Shown here piece by piece: positions 3,415-21,947 of a DNA stretch of 21,947 bases. Under the pieces are notes generated by a model. The model had not been told where the DNA came from. It saw only the letters and a list, made by a program, of their open reading frames with translations, and made no database searches. Every line of letters starts with the position of its first letter. The stretch's first letter is position 1. Source of the stretch: a virus; IMG/VR virus record IMGVR_UViG_3300012012_000575, positions 1-21,947 of that record, one strand, 5' to 3'. Position numbers and translations under genes: made by a program.

Positions 3415-4215
3415 ATGGCTGAAGTAAAACAAGTAGTAAAGAAACCAGCAAGTAATGGATCTCTAGTAGGTAACATTAATGCTGATTTAATTCTGAAAAA
3501 TGCCGGTAAAGGATTACAGAATGTCACTAACGATGATATTACAATTCCTAGACTAGCTATAGTTCAGTCAGGTTCACCTCAAAGAAAGAAAAAAGATGAA
3601 AAGTATATTGAGGGAGCTGAAGAAGGTATGATTTTTAATACTGTTACTAATACTGTATATGGTAATACTATTGAAGTTATTCCTTGTGGATATAGAAAAA
3701 CCTATGTAGAGTGGGTACCTAGAGAAGATGGTGGCGGATTAGTAGCAGTTCATGATATGAAACCTGCTAATACTAAAACTGATCCTAAAACTAGAAAATC
3801 TTTATTAGGTAAAAATCAAATAGTTGATACTGCGGAACATTTTGTGCTTCTTCAAAAAGAAGATGGTACATATGAACCTGCTGTATTAAATATGACTTCT
3901 AGTAATCTTTCAGTTTCAAGAAAGTGGAATACACTTCTTAAAATGAAAAAGATTAATGTTAAAGGTCAAACTATTGATCCACCTAGTTTTCTATATAAAT
4001 TTAATCTTTCTACTGTTCAAGCTGAGAATGACTTGGGTAGTTGGTTTAAATATAAAATAGAAGAAATAGGTCAAATTGATAGTAAAGATGTATTTAGTCA
4101 AGCTGAAGGTCTAGCTGAATCAGTGGACAAAGGCAAAGTTAAAGCATCTGAACCTGTAGAAGTTGATCAACCTGTAACTGATGATTCTGACGATAACGAA
4201 GAAGCACCTTTTTAA
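3415..4215 (+). CDS. Probable single-stranded DNA-binding protein with acidic C-terminal tail
   Basis: The 266-residue protein has a flexible Lys-rich N-terminus, a central domain containing NDDITIPRLAIVQSGSP, FNTVTNTVYGNTIEVIPCGY and KTYVEWVPREDGGG, and an unstructured C-terminus ending DDSDDNEEAPF. An acidic tail closing on an aromatic residue is characteristic of phage and bacterial ssDNA-binding proteins (T7 gp2.5, SSB), where it recruits replication partners. The gene lies directly before the primase (3-nt gap), which supports the assignment. The central domain belongs to a phage family usually annotated as hypothetical, so the SSB call rests on the tail and context, not on a recognised OB-fold signature. 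A ribosome-binding site, AAAGGAG, sits just inside the upstream gene's 3' end. Confidence 0.5.
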   Translation: MAEVKQVVKKPASNGSLVGNINADLILKNAGKGLQNVTNDDITIPRLAIVQSGSPQRKKKDEKYIEGAEEGMIFNTVTNTVYGNTIEVIPCGYRKTYVEWVPREDGGGLVAVHDMKPANTKTDPKTRKSLLGKNQIVDTAEHFVLLQKEDGTYEPAVLNMTSSNLSVSRKWNTLLKMKKINVKGQTIDPPSFLYKFNLSTVQAENDLGSWFKYKIEEIGQIDSKDVFSQAEGLAESVDKGKVKASEPVEVDQPVTDDSDDNEEAPF

Positions 4216-14347: not shown

Positions 14348-15618
14348 TGAATATCGGATTTTTAGGATTAGGAAAATTAGGACTTCCAGTAGCTCTTGCT
14401 ATAGAAGATAAAGGACATAACGTTTGCGGAACGGATATTAGTCCAATTACATTAAAAGGAATAAGAACAAAAACCCTCCATTATAAAGAAGAAGGTGCTC
14501 AAGAACTATTAAATAAATCGAATATTCAAATAAAAAACATTAGCGATATAGTCAAAGATTGTGATATAATTTTTGTCCCTATTCAAACTCCACATGAAGA
14601 AAAATACGAAGGAATTACAAGAATACCTAAAGAAAGAGCTGATTTTAATTACGAACATTTAAGAAATGGATTAAGAAATTTAGCTATAGAAGCTATGTTT
14701 CATAAAAAAGAAATTGTTGTAATTATAATATCGACTGTTCTCCCGGGAACTATTCGTAGAGAGATAATGCCTGTATTAAATAATTATATTAAACTTTGTT
14801 ATAATCCTTTCTTTATAGCAATGGGTACTACTATTCAAGATTTTTTAAATAGTGAAATTATATTATTTGGAGTTGAAAATGAAGAAGCAGCAAAAAAAGC
14901 TGAAGAATTTTATAAAACAATTAATGATAAACCTTTTTTTAAAACTACATTAGAAAATGCTGAATTAATAAAAGTAGTTTATAATACTTTTATTTCAACT
15001 AAAATTTCTATGATTAATACAGTTATGGAAACATGTCATTATCTTCCTAACACTAATGTAGATGAAGTATCTAAAGCTCTTTCACTTTGTACAAATAGAA
15101 TTGTAAGTAATAAATATTTACAAGGAGGAATGGGAGACGGAGGTGGTTGTCACCCTAGAGATAATATAGCTCTATCGTATCTTGCAAATAAATTAGATTT
15201 ATCATTTAATTGGTATGATATGATTATGAAACAACGTGAACATCAAACTGAATGGTTAGCAAGATTAATTATACAAAATAGAAATGGATTAGAAATAAAT
15301 ATTTTAGGTAAATCTTTTAAACCTGAAACTACTTTAACTTTAGGAAGTCCTTCATTACTTCTTAAAACTATTTTAGAAGAATATGGTATTACAATAAAAA
15401 TTTGGGATCCATACGTTGATGGCAATATAGAAAAAACAGCAAAAGAATATGGGTGGAATGATCGAGCACAATTATTTTTTATAGGAACTAAACATGAAGC
15501 TTTTCATCATTTTTATTTTCATAAAGATTCAGTAATCATTGATCCATTTAGGTACTTAAATCTTAAAGATGATGTTAAATATATACCAATAGGAATATGC
15601 AACCAAAAGATAGAATAG
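14347..15618 (+). CDS. UDP-glucose/GDP-mannose dehydrogenase family protein with divergent active site
   Basis: The 423-residue protein has an N-terminal Rossmann domain IGFLGLGKLGLPVA (GxGxxG at Gly7-Gly12, Asp30 for NAD), TVLPGTIR, the central domain with ENAELIKVVYNTF (Lys209, Asn213) and STKISMIN, the nucleophile region GDGGGCHPRDN (Cys268), and a C-terminal UDP-binding domain (LGKSFKPET). These define nucleotide-sugar 6-dehydrogenases, which oxidise UDP-glucose or a similar sugar to the uronic acid with two NAD+. Unusual points: the NPEFLxEG segment is NPFFIAMG (residues 153-160), so both usual glutamates are Phe155 and Met159, and the C-terminal TDDxRxSP motif is TTLTLGSP. Substrate or product may therefore differ. 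It sits between polA (TAATG) and nadE (22-nt overlap), a context of DNA synthesis and not of capsule synthesis. Confidence 0.82.
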   Translation: MNIGFLGLGKLGLPVALAIEDKGHNVCGTDISPITLKGIRTKTLHYKEEGAQELLNKSNIQIKNISDIVKDCDIIFVPIQTPHEEKYEGITRIPKERADFNYEHLRNGLRNLAIEAMFHKKEIVVIIISTVLPGTIRREIMPVLNNYIKLCYNPFFIAMGTTIQDFLNSEIILFGVENEEAAKKAEEFYKTINDKPFFKTTLENAELIKVVYNTFISTKISMINTVMETCHYLPNTNVDEVSKALSLCTNRIVSNKYLQGGMGDGGGCHPRDNIALSYLANKLDLSFNWYDMIMKQREHQTEWLARLIIQNRNGLEINILGKSFKPETTLTLGSPSLLLKTILEEYGITIKIWDPYVDGNIEKTAKEYGWNDRAQLFFIGTKHEAFHHFYFHKDSVIIDPFRYLNLKDDVKYIPIGICNQKIE

Positions 15619-16367
15619 AACATATAAAAAATTGGATTTTTAATTATGTAACTGAAATGCCTAATCCAGCTAATTGTTTAGTTGTAGGTATATCAGGCGG
15701 AATTGATTCATCTGTAGTAAGTACCATATCAGCAATGACTGGACTTAAAACTTTACTTGTTTGTATGCCAATACATCAAAGACCTGAACAACATGATTTA
15801 TCTATAGCACATAAAAATTGGCTTACTAATAAATTTAAAAATGCTTATGGAGTTGAAGTTGATTTAACTTATACTTTTAATTCTTTTGAAAATACTTTAA
15901 TTGATAGAAAATTTACATCTCAACTAGGATTAGCTAATTCAAGAGCTAGATTAAGAATGATGTGTTTATATCAAATAGCTTCTTCTTGTAACGGAATAGT
16001 AGTTGGAACTGGAAATAAAATAGAAGATTTTGGTGTAGGATTCTTTACTAAATATGGAGACGGCGGAGTAGATGTATCTCCAATTGGTGATTGTTTAAAA
16101 ACAGATGTATGGAAAATGGGTAAAGAGTTAGGAATATTAGAGGATATTATTATGGCAGATCCAACTGATGGGTTATGGTCAGATGGCAGAACTGACGTTG
16201 ATCAACTAGGAATGAGCTATAAAGAATTAGAAATAGCTATGCAAGATCCTTCTGATAAGAATTATACTAAATATTTAGAACTTAGAATTAAGAATTTACA
16301 TAAGATGAAGTCAATCCCTGTATGTAAATTTGATGGAAAAACTACTCTGGAAACAGATAAGAAATAA
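15597..16367 (+). CDS. nadE: NAD+ synthetase (ammonia-dependent NadE)
   Basis: The 256-residue protein matches NadE: PP-loop GISGGIDSSVVS (SGGIDSS at residues 33-39) for ATP, LANSRARLRMMCLYQIA, VVGTGNKIEDFGVGFFTKYG, VDVSPIGDCLKTDVWKMGKELGI and DPTDGLWSDGRTDVDQLGMSY, the deamido-NAD-binding segments. The absence of an N-terminal nitrilase domain and the length (family about 275) indicate the ammonia-using form. It converts nicotinic acid adenine dinucleotide to NAD+. It overlaps the NAD-dependent sugar dehydrogenase by 22 nt, so the two are probably co-translated; supply of NAD+ for that enzyme, or restoring NAD+ pools attacked by host defences, are two possible reasons. Neither is shown by sequence. 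Its 3' end overlaps the nuclease gene. Confidence 0.92.
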   Translation: MQPKDRIEHIKNWIFNYVTEMPNPANCLVVGISGGIDSSVVSTISAMTGLKTLLVCMPIHQRPEQHDLSIAHKNWLTNKFKNAYGVEVDLTYTFNSFENTLIDRKFTSQLGLANSRARLRMMCLYQIASSCNGIVVGTGNKIEDFGVGFFTKYGDGGVDVSPIGDCLKTDVWKMGKELGILEDIIMADPTDGLWSDGRTDVDQLGMSYKELEIAMQDPSDKNYTKYLELRIKNLHKMKSIPVCKFDGKTTLETDKK

Positions 16368-17826: not shown

Positions 17827-18126
17827 ATGTATATGTTTGATATTAAAGATGAGATAGATAAGTTATTAAATGAATTTCATTCATCACCTACTCGTAATTA
17901 TTGGGTGGAAATAAGTTATTTTGAAAAGAAAAATCCTAAAAAACTACTCACAATAGAATTTGCTCAATTTGATAACGATCCTTTCTTTCCTAGGATTTAT
18001 AGAATGTTTAATTTTTTAAAATTTAAGATGAAAGATTTTGAATTTGTAGATTTAGATGTTGTTCCTTATTTTAAAGAAATACCTAAGTATGTAGAGCACT
18101 TTCAAACTGAATTTACTATACATTAG
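17827..18126 (+). CDS. Hypothetical protein
   Basis: The 99-residue soluble protein is rich in Phe, Tyr, Asp and Lys: MYMFDIKDEIDKLLNEFHSS at the N-terminus and FPRIYRMFNFLKFKMKDFEF in the centre. No family is recognised, and there is no membrane segment and no cysteine cluster. The start is poorly marked: no Shine-Dalgarno is seen before the ATG at 17827, and a second ATG lies at 17833. It lies 19 nt after the peptidase-like gene and is followed by a 43-nt AT-rich gap before the lysozyme-type gene. The codon use is like that of its neighbours, and the open frame fills its interval, so I accept it as coding. Confidence 0.55.
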   Translation: MYMFDIKDEIDKLLNEFHSSPTRNYWVEISYFEKKNPKKLLTIEFAQFDNDPFFPRIYRMFNFLKFKMKDFEFVDLDVVPYFKEIPKYVEHFQTEFTIH

Positions 18127-18169
18127 TTGTATACTTAAAATTCTAAATATTTAAAATAATCTAAATACT

Positions 18170-18763
18170 ATGAAAAAAAGCTCATTTAAAGCTCTTTATT
18201 CACACGGTTTAGTCTATATCCATATACTACTATGGCTGACTATTTTCATTTATTTAAACTTTTCAGCAACTCTAAAAGAACCCGTCTTTAAGTATAATAA
18301 CAATAGAGAATTTGTTGTTGATCTTCAAAGATGTATAGATTATCATCATCAATATATTCCTAAAAATCAAAGAATACCTGACGAAATGATAGTAGCTCAG
18401 GCGATAGTAGAAAGTGATTATGGTACAAGTCGATTTGCTATAGAAGCTAATAATCTTTTTGGAATTAGAACATATAAGAAAGAAGAAAAGCAATTAAAAC
18501 CACTTCATAGACCTAATGCTAATTTTGGTGTAAAAGTATTTAAAAGTAAATGTGATAGTGTAAGATTTTATATGATCATGATGAACAATCACCATGCTTA
18601 TCAATCATTTAGAGCTTTACGAGACAATGGAGTCAAAGAGCCGTTGATCCTGATTACCAAATTATATAATTTCAGTGAGAACAAGATGTATTATTATTTA
18701 TTAAGAGAAGTTATTATTAATTTAAGAAAGGATAACAATGAAAGTAAAAGTAATAAAACGTGA
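18170..18763 (+). CDS. Bax-like glucosaminidase endolysin with N-terminal membrane anchor
   Basis: The 197-residue protein has a basic N-terminus, a hydrophobic segment at about residues 14-31 (LVYIHILLWLTIFIYLNF) that can act as a signal or signal anchor, and a catalytic domain DEMIVAQAIVESDYGTSRFA followed by ANNLFGI, the pattern of the Bax/glucosaminidase superfamily with likely catalytic Glu81. It should cleave the glycan strands of peptidoglycan once outside the inner membrane, with the anchor giving Sec-dependent, possibly SAR-type export. It lies about 18 kb from the holin at the left edge, so the lysis genes in this window are not adjacent. An AT-rich 43-nt gap before it lacks a clear ribosome-binding site. 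The 3' end overlaps the next gene by 26 nt. Confidence 0.75.
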   Translation: MKKSSFKALYSHGLVYIHILLWLTIFIYLNFSATLKEPVFKYNNNREFVVDLQRCIDYHHQYIPKNQRIPDEMIVAQAIVESDYGTSRFAIEANNLFGIRTYKKEEKQLKPLHRPNANFGVKVFKSKCDSVRFYMIMMNNHHAYQSFRALRDNGVKEPLILITKLYNFSENKMYYYLLREVIINLRKDNNESKSNKT

Positions 18764-19004
18764 TCAATTAATAGAAGCTAATCAGATTGCTATAGAGAAA
18801 AATTGGCCACGTCATTTTAAAGAACATAATTTTGATGAATTTGATGAAGATCAAGATTGGCCTATTCTTTTTTTTATTAAGAAAAATAAAGATAGAACTA
18901 GAGTGTTATTTGAACATGATAATGGTGAATTATATCAATTAGATGTTGAAGATAATATCTTCACTAATTTAAAAGAAATAGAAGAAAATATTGTTTTAAA
19001 TTAA
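18738..19004 (+). CDS. Hypothetical acidic protein
   Basis: The 88-residue protein begins MKVKVIKRDQLIEANQIAIE and has an acidic middle (FDEFDEDQDWPILFFIKKN) and end. There is no recognised family, membrane segment or catalytic motif. Translation is supported by AGAAAGGA just before the ATG, within the 3' end of the glucosaminidase gene (26-nt overlap). It starts the run of small accessory proteins that fills the window to 21501. After it comes an 80-nt non-coding gap containing the hairpin at 19031-19059. Function unknown. Confidence 0.6.
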   Translation: MKVKVIKRDQLIEANQIAIEKNWPRHFKEHNFDEFDEDQDWPILFFIKKNKDRTRVLFEHDNGELYQLDVEDNIFTNLKEIEENIVLN

Positions 19005-19030
19005 TTTTATTTAATATAATTAAAAATAGA

Positions 19031-19059
19031 GAGAGAAATCGCCACCCGATTTTTCTCTC
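19031..19059 (+). promoter_or_regulatory. RNA hairpin in the 5' leader of the small-gene cassette
   Basis: In the 80-nt gap between 19004 and 19085, GAGAGAAATCG (19031-19041) pairs with the downstream CGAT...TTTCTCTC (19047-19059), leaving a CCACC loop and a two-U bulge. It stands out as a G/C-bearing structure in an A/T-rich gap. There is no U-run after it on the + strand, so it does not look like a normal rightward terminator; the minus-strand transcript would have a U-rich stretch after it. It may be an mRNA-processing or stability element or a leader for the downstream genes. The pairing is seen in the sequence; the role is a guess. Confidence 0.45.
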
Positions 19060-19084
19060 GCTAACATAGAAAGAAAGAAAAAAC

Positions 19085-19276
19085 ATGTCTATAAAAGTAA
19101 TACCAATTGTACCACAAGAGGGTATGGTAAGAGTAGTAGCTAATGACTTGTATCGTATAGAAGATATACAAGAAGCAGCTATTCAGTGCGGTTATGATCC
19201 AGAGAAACTATATGATAAATTGACTGGATTTCCTAATGGAAAAGATAAAGTGATAGGAGAATTAATTAATGAGTGA
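19085..19276 (+). CDS. Small hypothetical protein
   Basis: The 63-residue protein begins MSIKVIPIVPQEGMVRVVAN and ends with an acidic helix LYDKLTGFPNGKDKVIGELI. It is soluble, with no family that I recognise. It follows the hairpin-bearing leader and is preceded by a purine-rich AGAAAGAAAG tract that can serve as ribosome-binding site. It overlaps the DUF3846-like gene by 8 nt. Function unknown; co-expression with its neighbour is likely. Confidence 0.6.
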   Translation: MSIKVIPIVPQEGMVRVVANDLYRIEDIQEAAIQCGYDPEKLYDKLTGFPNGKDKVIGELINE

Positions 19277-19604
19277 TAAAAATTATAAACATATCTTTAT
19301 ATGGTCGTCAGGACTTCATATAGAAACTGATTTAAAAAAATCTATTGAAGACTTAGAACACTTGCAAGGAGTAGTAGGCGGTTTTATAGAACAATCTCAA
19401 GGTAGATATGATGGTAAAAACTATACGATGTGGGTTAACGAAGAAGGTCTTTTACATAATTTACCAGTAAATCAAAAAGCTACTAAGGCATATCAAGACT
19501 ATTGGTTTTGGTACGAAAACGAAAATCCAGGAACTACTGATCGCACTCGTATAGAACAAACTAAAATAGTAGGAAATGTAGTTTTAATAGATGAACAGGG
19601 ATAA
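19269..19604 (+). CDS. DUF3846-like protein
   Basis: The 111-residue protein shows the layout of DUF3846: an N-terminal segment HIETDLKKSIEDLEHLQGVV, then GGFIEQSQ, MWVNEEGLLHNLPVNQKATKA, a Trp/Tyr-rich stretch YQDYWFWYENENPG and a closing KIVGNVVLID. This small domain is widespread in phages and plasmids, without a known function. The NEEGL..LP.N..A core is the part I rely on. The start overlaps the upstream 63-residue gene by 8 nt, and the next gene begins 14 nt before its stop, so it is part of a translationally coupled run. Confidence 0.65.
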   Translation: MSDKNYKHIFIWSSGLHIETDLKKSIEDLEHLQGVVGGFIEQSQGRYDGKNYTMWVNEEGLLHNLPVNQKATKAYQDYWFWYENENPGTTDRTRIEQTKIVGNVVLIDEQG

Positions 19605-19866
19605 TAAATCTAATTATTTTATAGGAGTTGGTAGTACAATAAATACAATTAGATTTATTGGTCCTTTTAACAGATTAGTTTTAGCAAAAAAATTCTATAA
19701 ACGAAATGAAGGTGATCCTGCATTTAATCCTCATAAAGAGATAGTTCAAATATATAAAGTTATTACACCTAAAAAATTTTTAGAAGAATCAAAAAAATTA
19801 TTTGAAAATTATTTTGAAAAACGTAATGTAATTGATTTTTTACATTACAAGAAAAGAAAGAAATGA
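19591..19866 (+). CDS. Hypothetical basic protein
   Basis: The 91-residue protein begins MNRDNKSNYFIGVGSTINTI, is rich in Lys, Arg and Phe, and ends LHYKKRKK. No family is recognised and no membrane segment is present. The basic C-terminus could bind nucleic acid, but that is only compositional. It overlaps the DUF3846-like gene by 14 nt at its start, and its stop is shared with the next ATG (ATGA). The codon use matches the neighbours. Confidence 0.55.
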   Translation: MNRDNKSNYFIGVGSTINTIRFIGPFNRLVLAKKFYKRNEGDPAFNPHKEIVQIYKVITPKKFLEESKKLFENYFEKRNVIDFLHYKKRKK

Positions 19867-20015
19867 AATTTATTACTGTAGATAAACTGAAAGAATTAAT
19901 TAATAGTAATAAAATAAGACTGAAAGATAAAGAATATTTTGATGAACTATACCATTACCAATTCTATTTAAAAGAAATAGTAATGAACTGGTTATCAAAA
20001 AGAAAGAAAATATGA
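19863..20015 (+). CDS. Small 50-residue ORF in overlapping chain
   Basis: The ORF encodes MKFITVDKLKELINSNKIRL at its start and ends NWLSKRKKI. Its ATG sits in an ATGA with the previous stop, and its own stop is in an ATGA with the next start. GAAAAGAAAG lies just upstream as a purine-rich ribosome-binding region. It is soluble, helical and basic, with no known family. The exact nesting between neighbours, filling the interval with no slack, is the main evidence. Confidence 0.6.
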   Translation: MKFITVDKLKELINSNKIRLKDKEYFDELYHYQFYLKEIVMNWLSKRKKI

Positions 20016-20149
20016 AAGAAGAATATTATAAAGTTACATATACAGATGGAACTATAGAATATTGGGAAAGCTATGATAAACTTGAAATTGAAAGATTAAG
20101 TAAAATTAATCCAGTGATAAGTATCATACTTGTTAAAGAAAGAAAATGA
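20012..20149 (+). CDS. Small 45-residue ORF in overlapping chain
   Basis: The ORF begins MKEEYYKVTYTDGTIEYWES and ends VISIILVKERK, looking like a small beta-rich domain (YKVTYTDGTIEYW) followed by a helix. It is joined on both sides by ATGA overlaps, and AAAGAAAGAAA upstream can act as ribosome-binding site. No family is recognised. Its place in a continuous coupled run supports translation. Confidence 0.6.
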   Translation: MKEEYYKVTYTDGTIEYWESYDKLEIERLSKINPVISIILVKERK

Positions 20150-20322
20150 TTAGTTTAAATACATTATCGACTATATACAATCGTTGGGGAGATAAAGAAG
20201 AATTACATCCTCTTGCTTCTGCCGATGCAGAATTATGGCGTAATGATTTAACCGAGGATCAAGTAGATTGGTTACAACGTTTTATTTTATTATGGAATAA
20301 AACAAAAAAGAAAGAAAGATAA
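20146..20322 (+). CDS. Small 58-residue ORF in overlapping chain
   Basis: The ORF begins MISLNTLSTIYNRWGDKEEL and continues HPLASADAELWRNDLTEDQVDWLQRF, ending in a Lys-rich tail. The Trp-rich helical composition suggests a small folded domain. It starts in an ATGA with the previous ORF and ends in a TAATG with the next gene. No family is recognised with confidence; function unknown. Confidence 0.65.
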   Translation: MISLNTLSTIYNRWGDKEELHPLASADAELWRNDLTEDQVDWLQRFILLWNKTKKKER

Positions 20323-20588
20323 TGAAAAATATAAAAGTTCAAGTTCAAGTAATAGTTCCAACTACATTTGAGTTAGAGATAACTGATAAAAAACGTTGGA
20401 AAGAAAAAAAAGATGAGTTTTTTTCTCAATGTAATTGTGAAAAAGATATGGGAGCTTATATACAAACAGACTATTGCGAAGAAGAATATGGCATTAGAAT
20501 TATAGATGAGAATATTGAAGAAGATCATCTAAATAAAGAGTTTGGAGATATAATACAAACATGGGATGAAAATGGAAAAGCCAGATAA
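20322..20588 (+). CDS. Hypothetical acidic protein
   Basis: The 88-residue protein starts MKNIKVQVQVIVPTTFELEI, an alternating pattern likely to form beta strands, followed by a Lys/Glu-rich helix and an acidic C-terminus; it has three cysteines (QCNCEK and DYCEEE). No family is recognised. AAAGAAAGAT is a fair ribosome-binding site, and the start shares an A with the previous stop (TAATG). It overlaps the next gene by 17-23 nt. Confidence 0.6.
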   Translation: MKNIKVQVQVIVPTTFELEITDKKRWKEKKDEFFSQCNCEKDMGAYIQTDYCEEEYGIRIIDENIEEDHLNKEFGDIIQTWDENGKAR

Positions 20589-20763
20589 TTGGAAAATATA
20601 TCATAAGACTAAAGATGAATTAAGAATTGCTTTAGAAAATCATCTAAAGTCTATTGATTTAGTTTTTATCTATGATAATACAAATAACGATGGAGACTAC
20701 GAAGCTCATATGGAATCTTTATGTGTCTCTGAAATGCATAAAATATTAAGGACTTATGAATAA
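20566..20763 (+). CDS. Small hypothetical protein
   Basis: The 65-residue protein begins MKMEKPDNWKIYHKTKDELR; a second ATG at 20572 is equally possible. The rest includes ENHLKSIDLVFIYDNTNND and a C-terminal helix. It is soluble, with no known family. It overlaps the upstream gene by up to 23 nt and the downstream gene by 8 nt, consistent with the coupled run. Confidence 0.55.
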   Translation: MKMEKPDNWKIYHKTKDELRIALENHLKSIDLVFIYDNTNNDGDYEAHMESLCVSEMHKILRTYE

Positions 20764-20986
20764 AAATAAATACATGTTAATCTACTGGTGGGGTTATAAT
20801 AACAACAGTAATGATAATAAACCTTTTATAGAGTGGATTGAAAAAAATGCTGAAGAACACTTTACAGAAGATAATGGATTTGATATTGATGATATAGAAA
20901 ACATAAAAGAGTTGTCGCCAGGAGATGACCATGAAATATGGGGAGCTGCTAGCACAACTAAACTTACAATATATTGTTACGCATGA
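20756..20986 (+). CDS. Small acidic hypothetical protein
   Basis: The 76-residue protein begins MNKNKYMLIYWWGYNNNSND and continues with an acidic region (AEEHFTEDNGFDIDDIENIK) and a closing strand KLTIYCYA. No family is recognised. It overlaps the preceding gene by 8 nt, and its stop is part of an ATGA starting the first of four tiny membrane ORFs. Function unknown. Confidence 0.6.
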   Translation: MNKNKYMLIYWWGYNNNSNDNKPFIEWIEKNAEEHFTEDNGFDIDDIENIKELSPGDDHEIWGAASTTKLTIYCYA

Positions 20987-21078
20987 TCTGGTTTATACTC
21001 GGTACAATTTTAGGAATATGGCTCGGCTGGAAATATGAACGTGTTGTAAATGATATTATAGAGAGTTATTTTAAATGA
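20983..21078 (+). CDS. Membrane micro-ORF 1 (31 residues)
   Basis: The ORF encodes MIWFILGTILGIWLGWKYER followed by a charged tail VVNDIIESYFK. Residues 1-16 form a single hydrophobic segment, with the charged part after it, like a small inner-membrane peptide. It is linked by ATGA overlaps to the gene before and the micro-ORF after. Too short for family recognition; the evidence is the tight chain and the hydrophobic design shared with its three followers. Confidence 0.5.
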   Translation: MIWFILGTILGIWLGWKYERVVNDIIESYFK

Positions 21079-21146
21079 TAATCGGTTTAGTAATTATATT
21101 TATTTTAGTTATATTATTAATGTGGACACTGATGTTGTACCCATGA
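21075..21146 (+). CDS. Membrane micro-ORF 2 (23 residues)
   Basis: The ORF encodes MIIGLVIIFILVILLMWTLM plus LYP: essentially one transmembrane helix and nothing else. Both ends lie in ATGA overlaps. A peptide of this length could arise by chance in AT-rich DNA, so the support comes from its position between two similarly built ORFs. Confidence 0.4.
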   Translation: MIIGLVIIFILVILLMWTLMLYP

Positions 21147-21232
21147 TTGAATTATTGAGAGAATTATATTTATATGAAATTATAATTATCATACTTCTAG
21201 GATACGTTTGTCTTTTACTCATGACTAAATGA
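21143..21232 (+). CDS. Membrane micro-ORF 3 (29 residues)
   Basis: The ORF encodes MIELLRELYLYEIIIIILLG followed by YVCLLLMTK: a short amphipathic start with charges, then a hydrophobic segment at about residues 12-27. It is joined by ATGA overlaps to micro-ORFs 2 and 4. Function unknown; confidence depends on the chain as a whole. Confidence 0.4.
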   Translation: MIELLRELYLYEIIIIILLGYVCLLLMTK

Positions 21233-21309
21233 AACGTGATCTTTATTTAGACGCAGCATTTGTTGTTATATTAATCGGACTTATTTTGGTATTCGTTATA
21301 CTTATTTAA
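21229..21309 (+). CDS. Membrane micro-ORF 4 (26 residues)
   Basis: The ORF encodes MKRDLYLDAAFVVILIGLIL and ends VFVILI: a positively charged N-terminus, then one hydrophobic helix reaching the stop TAA at 21307-21309. The start is in an ATGA overlap with micro-ORF 3. The same frame stays open after the stop up to 21501, which is noted separately. Confidence 0.4.
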   Translation: MKRDLYLDAAFVVILIGLILVFVILI

Positions 21310-21411
21310 AAATATTATATTTATATTATAAGTTACGAATATAAATGGGTACACGAATATAATATAAAAAAATTTAAAAATAAAATTATACCACTAAAAG
21401 CTATTCCGTTT

Positions 21412-21501
21412 ATGTGTAATCATATGCCTGTAGTTCATAAAGGTAAATATAAAGGTTGTATAGGAATAGTAGGTCTAATTCTTTGTATAGTTAAAAAATG
21501 A
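21412..21501 (+). CDS. Uncertain small ORF before the last gene (29 residues from first ATG)
   Basis: The frame is open from 21310 to the TGA at 21499-21501, which overlaps the next ATG (ATGA) exactly as elsewhere in this operon. The first ATG at 21412 gives MCNHMPVVHKGKYKGCIGIV and a hydrophobic end; a second ATG is at 21424. No ribosome-binding site is seen. The upstream open part reads YEYKWVHEYNIKKFKNKIIP, which looks coding, so the true start may be a non-ATG codon further left. The region 21310-21411 holds no other gene that I can see. Confidence 0.3.
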   Translation: MCNHMPVVHKGKYKGCIGIVGLILCIVKK

Positions 21502-21947
21502 ATATCTTTTATTTAGACGAAAATCCTAAGAAATGCGCAGAATATCATTGCGATAAACACGTAGTCAAGATGATTATCGAATATGCGCAATTACTCTCTA
21601 CAGCCCACCGGCTTTGTGATGGAATAGAGAGCCGTGGATCAAGTAGATCAGGTAAAAGACAAGTAAGAGTATGGAAGCTTGACGATTCACGTGAAAATAG
21701 CTTGTATTTAGCCAGTCATATCAATCACCCAAGTAATATATGGACACGTTCTAGTGTAGAGAATTATCAATGGTTATGGCAATTATGGTATAATCTATGT
21801 AAAGAATACGAAGAAAGATATAATAGAACTCATGCAACATGGATCAAGTTAGCTACTCATTTATCTATTCCACCTCATAATATTCCCGAGATAAGAGCAA
21901 CTCCTATACCATTATGTATGCCTGACGAATATAAGACCGAGGATCCA
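21498..21947 (+). CDS. Conserved phage protein, 3' end cut by window end
   Basis: The first 150 residues are present: MNIFYLDENPKKCAEYHCDK, HVVKMIIEYAQLLSTAHRL, then VWKLDDSREN, HINHPSNIWTRSSVENYQWL, YEERYNRTHATWIKLA and a Pro-rich TPIPLCMPDEYK before the window ends. I recognise the CDKHVVKMI...AQLLSTAH and NHPS.IW.R.S..NY.WL pattern from cyanophages and other marine phages, where it is generally an unassigned conserved protein. Several conserved His, Asp and Cys residues suggest an enzyme or metal site. It begins in an ATGA with the ORF before it. Base use seems slightly richer in G/C than the genes to its left. Confidence 0.75.
   Translation, partial: MNIFYLDENPKKCAEYHCDKHVVKMIIEYAQLLSTAHRLCDGIESRGSSRSGKRQVRVWKLDDSRENSLYLASHINHPSNIWTRSSVENYQWLWQLWYNLCKEYEERYNRTHATWIKLATHLSIPPHNIPEIRATPIPLCMPDEYKTEDP

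Follow-up and report, generated by a model that had tools for sequence, protein, structure and literature searches.

Short repeated sequences at gene boundaries or before gene starts have been described in several phage systems. Among Cluster I mycobacteriophages, Island3 gene 68 is missing from Brujita, and Pope et al. (PMC3029335) tie this difference to short boundary sequences, with a repeat at the gene ends and a hybrid copy. The same paper states that at most mosaic boundaries such boundary sequences are unidentifiable. Cluster K mycobacteriophages contain start-associated sequences, for which the authors suggest a role in translation (PMC3203893). In T4-type phages, promoter-early stem-loop (PeSL) cassettes place a repeated regulatory element between small genes, and this element is said, as cited in PMC4503421, to mediate gene shuffling.

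The locus described here lies in a 21,947-base virus record with 28.5% G+C, the whole of which was analysed and is referred to as the window. Tailed-phage replication genes are present in the window, and its DNA polymerase A is 40–44% identical to that of phages such as DSL-LC04 and Pelagibacter phage HTVC023P; a megablast search with the whole window returned no near-identical phage record. An earlier note on this DNA had reported a chain of three ORFs of 50, 45 and 58 codons, designated here A50, B45 and C58, that tile positions 19863–20322. These coordinates are exact, and the joints are as claimed, with ATGA at 19863, 20012 and 20146 and TAATG at 20320–20324. It is also correct that the interval would look non-coding under a 60-aa cutoff, which leaves zero ORFs listed between 19866 and 20322. 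A50, B45 and C58 are probably genuine accessory genes of an AT-rich tailed phage, coupled at the level of translation and arrayed as single-gene cassettes; a repeated linker would serve as the ribosome-binding region and also supply short homology. The comparison set consists of the window and all nine close contigs found (L011–L019), all of them metagenomic. The ORFs of the locus and its surroundings are as follows.

19085..19276, plus strand, 63-aa ORF, a second optional cassette, absent from L013, L014, L015, L016 and L017
19591..19866, plus strand, 91-aa ORF, the stable left flank, with a C-terminal KKRKK encoded by the linker
19863..20015, plus strand, A50, 50-aa ORF with an ATGA overlap with both neighbours
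20012..20149, plus strand, B45, 45-aa ORF, optional cassette
20146..20322, plus strand, C58, 58-aa ORF, optional cassette, PHROG 9962
20322..20588, plus strand, 88-aa ORF, the right flank, in eight of the nine close contigs and lost in L019
20983..21309, plus strand, four small and mostly hydrophobic ORFs (31, 23, 29 and 26 aa) in an ATGA-joined chain

The purine-rich sites noticed before the starts turn out to be one identical 11-mer, AAAGAAAGAAA, which precedes all four starts of the slot and also that of the 63-aa ORF.

19070..19080, plus strand, AAAGAAAGAAA before the 63-aa ORF
19853..19863, plus strand, AAAGAAAGAAA before A50, within the 3' end of the 91-aa ORF
19999..20009, plus strand, AAAGAAAGAAA before B45, within the 3' end of A50
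20135..20145, plus strand, AAAGAAAGAAA before C58, within the 3' end of B45
20307..20317, plus strand, AAAGAAAGAAA before the 88-aa ORF, within the 3' end of C58

With a sixth copy at 3581, away from any start, the window contains six copies of the linker and none on the minus strand, against a mean of 0.28 and a maximum of 2 in shuffled sequences (n = 100). Lying within the last part of the preceding gene, the linker codes for the Lys/Arg tails of the upstream proteins (KKRKK, SKRKKI, VKERK and KKKER). Just before the first linker, at 19029–19059, a 13-pair hairpin (fold z −4.2) lies between an 88-aa ORF and the 63-aa ORF; it is largely kept in the seven close relatives that cover this site (L016 not counted) and is not called as a terminator.

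Comparison of the slot between the 91-aa and 88-aa ORFs reveals five layouts among the nine relatives and the window.

A50, B45 and C58: window, L012 and L018 (L018 is cut by the contig end)
A50, X53 and B45: L011
A50 and C58: L013, L016 and L017
A50 alone: L014 and L015
Truncated A50, with the 88-aa ORF lost: L019

A50, B45 and C58 are thus single-gene cassettes, and the relatives differ by whole genes, with the differences placed at the AAAGAAAGAAA repeat. A50 is full length in seven of the nine close contigs (L011–L017), the L018 copy being cut by the contig end and the L019 copy truncated by a deletion; B45 is present in three (L011, L012 and L018), and C58 in five. For most slots, these presence/absence differences could reflect either gain or loss. 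The conservation that the earlier note had proposed to check holds in part: starts and frames are kept wherever a gene is present, but gene ends are not strictly kept and presence is polymorphic. A50 is 50, 51, 52 or 58 aa long, varying with the gene that comes next, C58 is 64 aa long in L018, and a mechanical ORF finder places the B45 start eight codons earlier in L012.

Other small genes vary as well. An extra 57-aa gene lies ahead of the 111-aa ORF in L012, an extra 47-aa gene lies ahead of the 76-aa ORF in L019, and the 23-aa and 26-aa hydrophobic ORFs of the 20983–21309 chain are variably present. The 23-aa ORF is found in the window, L011, L013 and L015 and is cleanly missing from L012, L018, L017 and L014. 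A 57-aa gene of L012, L018 and L017 has its window counterpart at 21328–21501, where ATA replaces ATG, so that the start of the window copy may be lost; the alleles of this gene in L011, L013 and L015 are divergent. The start of the 76-aa ORF (20756–20986) in the window is closer to that of L014, L015 and L017 than to that of L011 and L012, which are otherwise the window's closest relatives, a pattern that suggests allele exchange.

Gene-size shifts, defined as differences of at least 40 nt, were taken from blastn blocks between the window and eight relatives (L016 was omitted as a copy of L017, the two being identical over the compared stretch). A total of 21 shifts is seen, or 15 after automatic merging, which counts the 23-aa and 63-aa differences twice. 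Both ends lie at most 20 nt from a window start in 11 of the 15 merged shifts, against a rotation mean of 1.1; the value of 11 is reached by 0 of 10,000 independent rotations and by 65 of 10,000 common-offset rotations. Hand-merging of both double counts gives 10 of 13 shifts with both ends at starts. The exceptions are the L018 copy of the 23-aa difference, which is an alignment overrun; the 26-aa gene, whose right breakpoint is at the stop rather than the start; a ~210-nt insertion in L019 (L019:1085-1298) at window position 18126, directly after the 99-aa ORF; and an off-seam L019 deletion from 19931 to 20587, which cuts inside A50 and removes linkers together with the 88-aa ORF. In the control region of larger genes, from ~14.7–15.0 kb to 18.7 kb, there are no gene-size shifts in L011, L012, L014, L015 or L017. 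The empty sites retain traces of both neighbouring linkers. In L013, the left part of the B45 linker runs into the right part of the C58 linker, whereas in L011 the end of B45 is joined directly to the start of the 88-aa ORF; hybrid linkers occur at the empty joints of L013, L017 and L011.

Two alternatives would account for the ORFs or for their layouts in another way. The ORFs could be spurious, in an interval that is non-coding or a pseudogene and whose AT-rich, purine-rich composition favours open frames, and it is true that all three are short, that neither A50 nor B45 has a convincing family match, and that B45, identical over 135 nt in the window, L011, L012 and L018, offers no informative substitutions among its four copies. 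However, Markov shuffling yields a chain of three ORFs of at least 40 codons each in 0 of 20,000 trials on the stretch and in 0 of 3,000 trials on the 2.8 kb around it; the gapless layout is moreover kept in most relatives. Residues 3–54 of C58 match positions 3–57 of the 59-long PHROG 9962 (phrog_9962) profile (E 1.3e-9), so that the match to this family without known function spans nearly the whole protein; it is the sole PHROG match obtained for the three ORFs. Further viral contigs carry C58 homologues, the frame is kept in those at 50–66% identity, and 22 columns, including IYNRWGD, are invariant among eight aligned sequences. For C58, dN falls below dS in each of the four distant pairs, at 0.30 versus 0.72 (L006) and at 0.76–0.85 versus 1.7–2.9 (L007, L008 and L010). 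The same holds for A50 between the window and L017 (dN 0.09, dS 0.35), L014 and L015; closer A50 pairs have too few changes to judge, as with L012, where dN of 0.024 exceeds dS of 0 on three differences. The case for B45 as a gene depends on the chain and on B45 staying intact as a unit. Spurious ORFs are therefore an extremely improbable explanation, and the reading of the three as genuine but easily missed genes is supported by conservation in relatives, by the C58 homologues and by the shuffle test. The layouts could instead have arisen during assembly, if strains were mixed and adjacent genes collapsed at short repeats; the relatives are metagenomic throughout, and purine repeats can confuse assembly. 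Yet the shared repeats are just 11–16 nt, which is below usual assembly word lengths, the same layouts recur in contigs whose samples carry different numbers (A50-C58 in L013 and L017, A50 alone in L014 and L015), and X53 is a new gene rather than a collapse, making an artefact of this kind very unlikely.

The remaining question is how whole genes come and go. In the favoured explanation, AAAGAAAGAAA would serve at each joint as a weak, purine-rich ribosome-binding site next to a stop codon that overlaps the following start codon (ATGA or TAATG), and because each gene opens its own frame at the joint, a joint-to-joint unit could be removed or added with its neighbours unharmed. The linker repeat would provide the short stretch of homology for deletion, through slipped replication or strand annealing, and for insertion, through exchange with co-infecting phages. 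The main rival is selection on random breakpoints: illegitimate recombination would occur anywhere, only products that spare the neighbours would survive, and the linker would be a preferred ribosome-binding sequence with no role in recombination. The position of the breakpoints is no proof of homology-driven recombination, because selection alone leaves start-to-start differences too. Selection alone also fits the location of the purine tract at the ribosome-binding position, the AGAAAGGA-type sites before several other window genes, and the several joints that share just 5–7 nt (those of the 23-aa gene, the L012 57-aa gene and the L019 47-aa gene); the joints of the 63-aa cassette have almost no in-register shared sequence. 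It does less well in the slot itself, where the longest run common to adjacent start windows is 12 nt for A50/B45, 13 nt for B45/C58 and 11 nt for C58/88-aa ORF, whereas of the 276 start-window pairs from genes upstream of 19000, 0 have more than 10 nt in common. The perfect 16-nt repeat AAAGAAAATATGAAAG that flanks X53 in L011 and the hybrid linkers at empty sites likewise speak against it. Selection on random breakpoints accounts for the clean starts but not for the long shared linkers, and as the sole explanation it appears rather unlikely.

C58 provides a view of exchange of a single gene. The window and L017 are 89.9% identical over 4.4 kb upstream (about 10% difference), but C58 differs at only 3 of 161 nt, compared with 14 of 136 in A50 and 32 of 267 in the 88-aa ORF (Fisher p 1e-4), and the linkers flanking C58 differ at 0 of 16 and 0 of 19 positions. 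The comparison of C58 between L013 and L017 likewise gives a Fisher p of 1e-4. Between the window and L017, dS is 0.03 in C58 versus 0.35 and 0.55 in the flanks; because dS itself is low in C58, protein-level constraint alone cannot explain the similarity. The simplest reading of these substitution patterns is a recent transfer of C58 as one unit, in either direction.

Relatives of C58 are also found in unrelated neighbourhoods, in two further phage groups whose linkers are different. In L056, two perfect 22-nt copies of AAAAACTAGGGAGGGTTAAATG bracket a C58 homologue, and the core of this repeat is absent elsewhere on that strand of the 6.2-kb locus. In L051, an extra 62-aa gene just before the C58 homologue lies between imperfect start-proximal repeats, with AAAAGARAGGAYCAAAARAATGGTTAAAC as the linker; L052 is without the 62-aa gene and has a single repeat, the left part of which equals L051 copy 1 and the right part copy 2. 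L056 and the L051/L052 pair are single examples rather than a survey. The C58 homologue of L054 is 98% identical to that of L056 while the neighbours differ; L054 was considered as an empty site relative to L056 and dropped, its right-hand junction not being linker-to-linker. Matches of the L054 homologue to marine phages, mostly cyanophages, were discounted (E 0.4–0.8). A tblastn search of phages with C58 gave no match, and a scan of genome contigs with the C58 alignment yielded 63 pattern matches, none of which was confirmed; tblastn of the 111-aa ORF in phages returned 34 distant records, which were set aside. Regions of HTVC023P and 023Pt_psg01 were consulted for how their genes are arranged. 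A homologue of X53 (81% identity) occurs at L044:2620-2784, in a 36% G+C contig where it is ATGA-joined to the upstream gene, and beyond this homologue no convincing relative of the window locus was found in L044. It is possible, and put forward only tentatively, that a stop-start overlap joined to a recurring ribosome-binding linker works as a reusable seam by which small phage genes become composable, that groups have settled on their own linkers (AAAGAAAGAAA here, AAAAACTAGGGAGGGTTAAATG in L056 and AAAAGARAGGAYCAAAARAATGGTTAAAC in L051), and that this is a general selected device for accessory-gene turnover. If so, any gene with the same seam could drop into or out of the run, with frame and coupling restored automatically.

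A50, B45 and C58 have no Pfam match above the cut-off, and PADLOC gives no match for the ten proteins tested, these three among them. B45 is predicted to fold as strand-strand-helix-strand (single-sequence model, pLDDT 79) and C58 as three helices with moderate confidence (pLDDT 68); structure comparison of the two gave no significant match, the C58 comparison being made against viral structures. The nearest folds to the B45 model include the UDG inhibitor p56, T7 Gp2, Dmd and YkzG, but these resemblances are weak (Z 3.5–4.4, Foldseek E >0.3), no better than a common small arrangement, and are given little credence. The earlier note suggested that small early proteins in such runs often act on host machinery or defences. 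Gene-by-gene accessory turnover is consistent with host-interaction genes, although it does not demonstrate such a role. Elsewhere in the window, positions 15597–16367 encode a phage NAD synthase (PF02540, E 2.5e-45), which may be linked to NAD-depleting defences.

How tiny accessory genes are swapped in dense phage operons without damage is a long-standing question. This locus displays the boundary sequence together with empty sites and the exchange of one gene, which leads to the prediction that linker repeat length should forecast gene loss. The pattern suggests how some phages reshuffle small accessory genes while leaving the neighbours undamaged, and it shows that a slot of actively exchanged genes goes unseen under a 60-codon cutoff.

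Set against the described systems, the locus resembles each in part. The PeSL cassettes place a promoter and stem-loop in gaps, whereas the linkers here are inside coding overlaps: the A50/B45/C58 joints are gapless, promoter-like sites in 18000–21947 are at chance level (28 versus 27.1 in shuffles), and terminator-like sites in the same interval number zero. With the Cluster K start-associated sequences, the linker shares the form of a short one-orientation repeat a few nt before the starts of non-structural genes, in genomes whose gene content varies between phages. The sequence is unrelated, with no match to the 13-bp consensus GGGATAGGAGCCC at up to two mismatches, and unlike the Cluster K sequences the linker is proposed here to act as an exchange seam. 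No description of this linker, or of single-gene exchange at ATGA seams, was found in the literature, which was searched in open-licence papers. The closest likeness is to Island3/Brujita and the lambdoid linkers, in which a small gene is absent from a close relative, a repeat stands at two neighbouring gene ends, and a single hybrid copy remains at the empty site. The same short conserved sequence at module edges and single hybrid copy are found here, and exchange may have proceeded by homologous recombination or annealing at the boundary. The Island3/Brujita case involves ~50–60 bp shared at one locus, compared with an 11–16 nt linker at five joints here; unlike that sequence, the linker of the window doubles as the putative ribosome-binding region and bounds several consecutive one-gene units. 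The array is read here as a variant of the already known boundary-sequence mosaicism.
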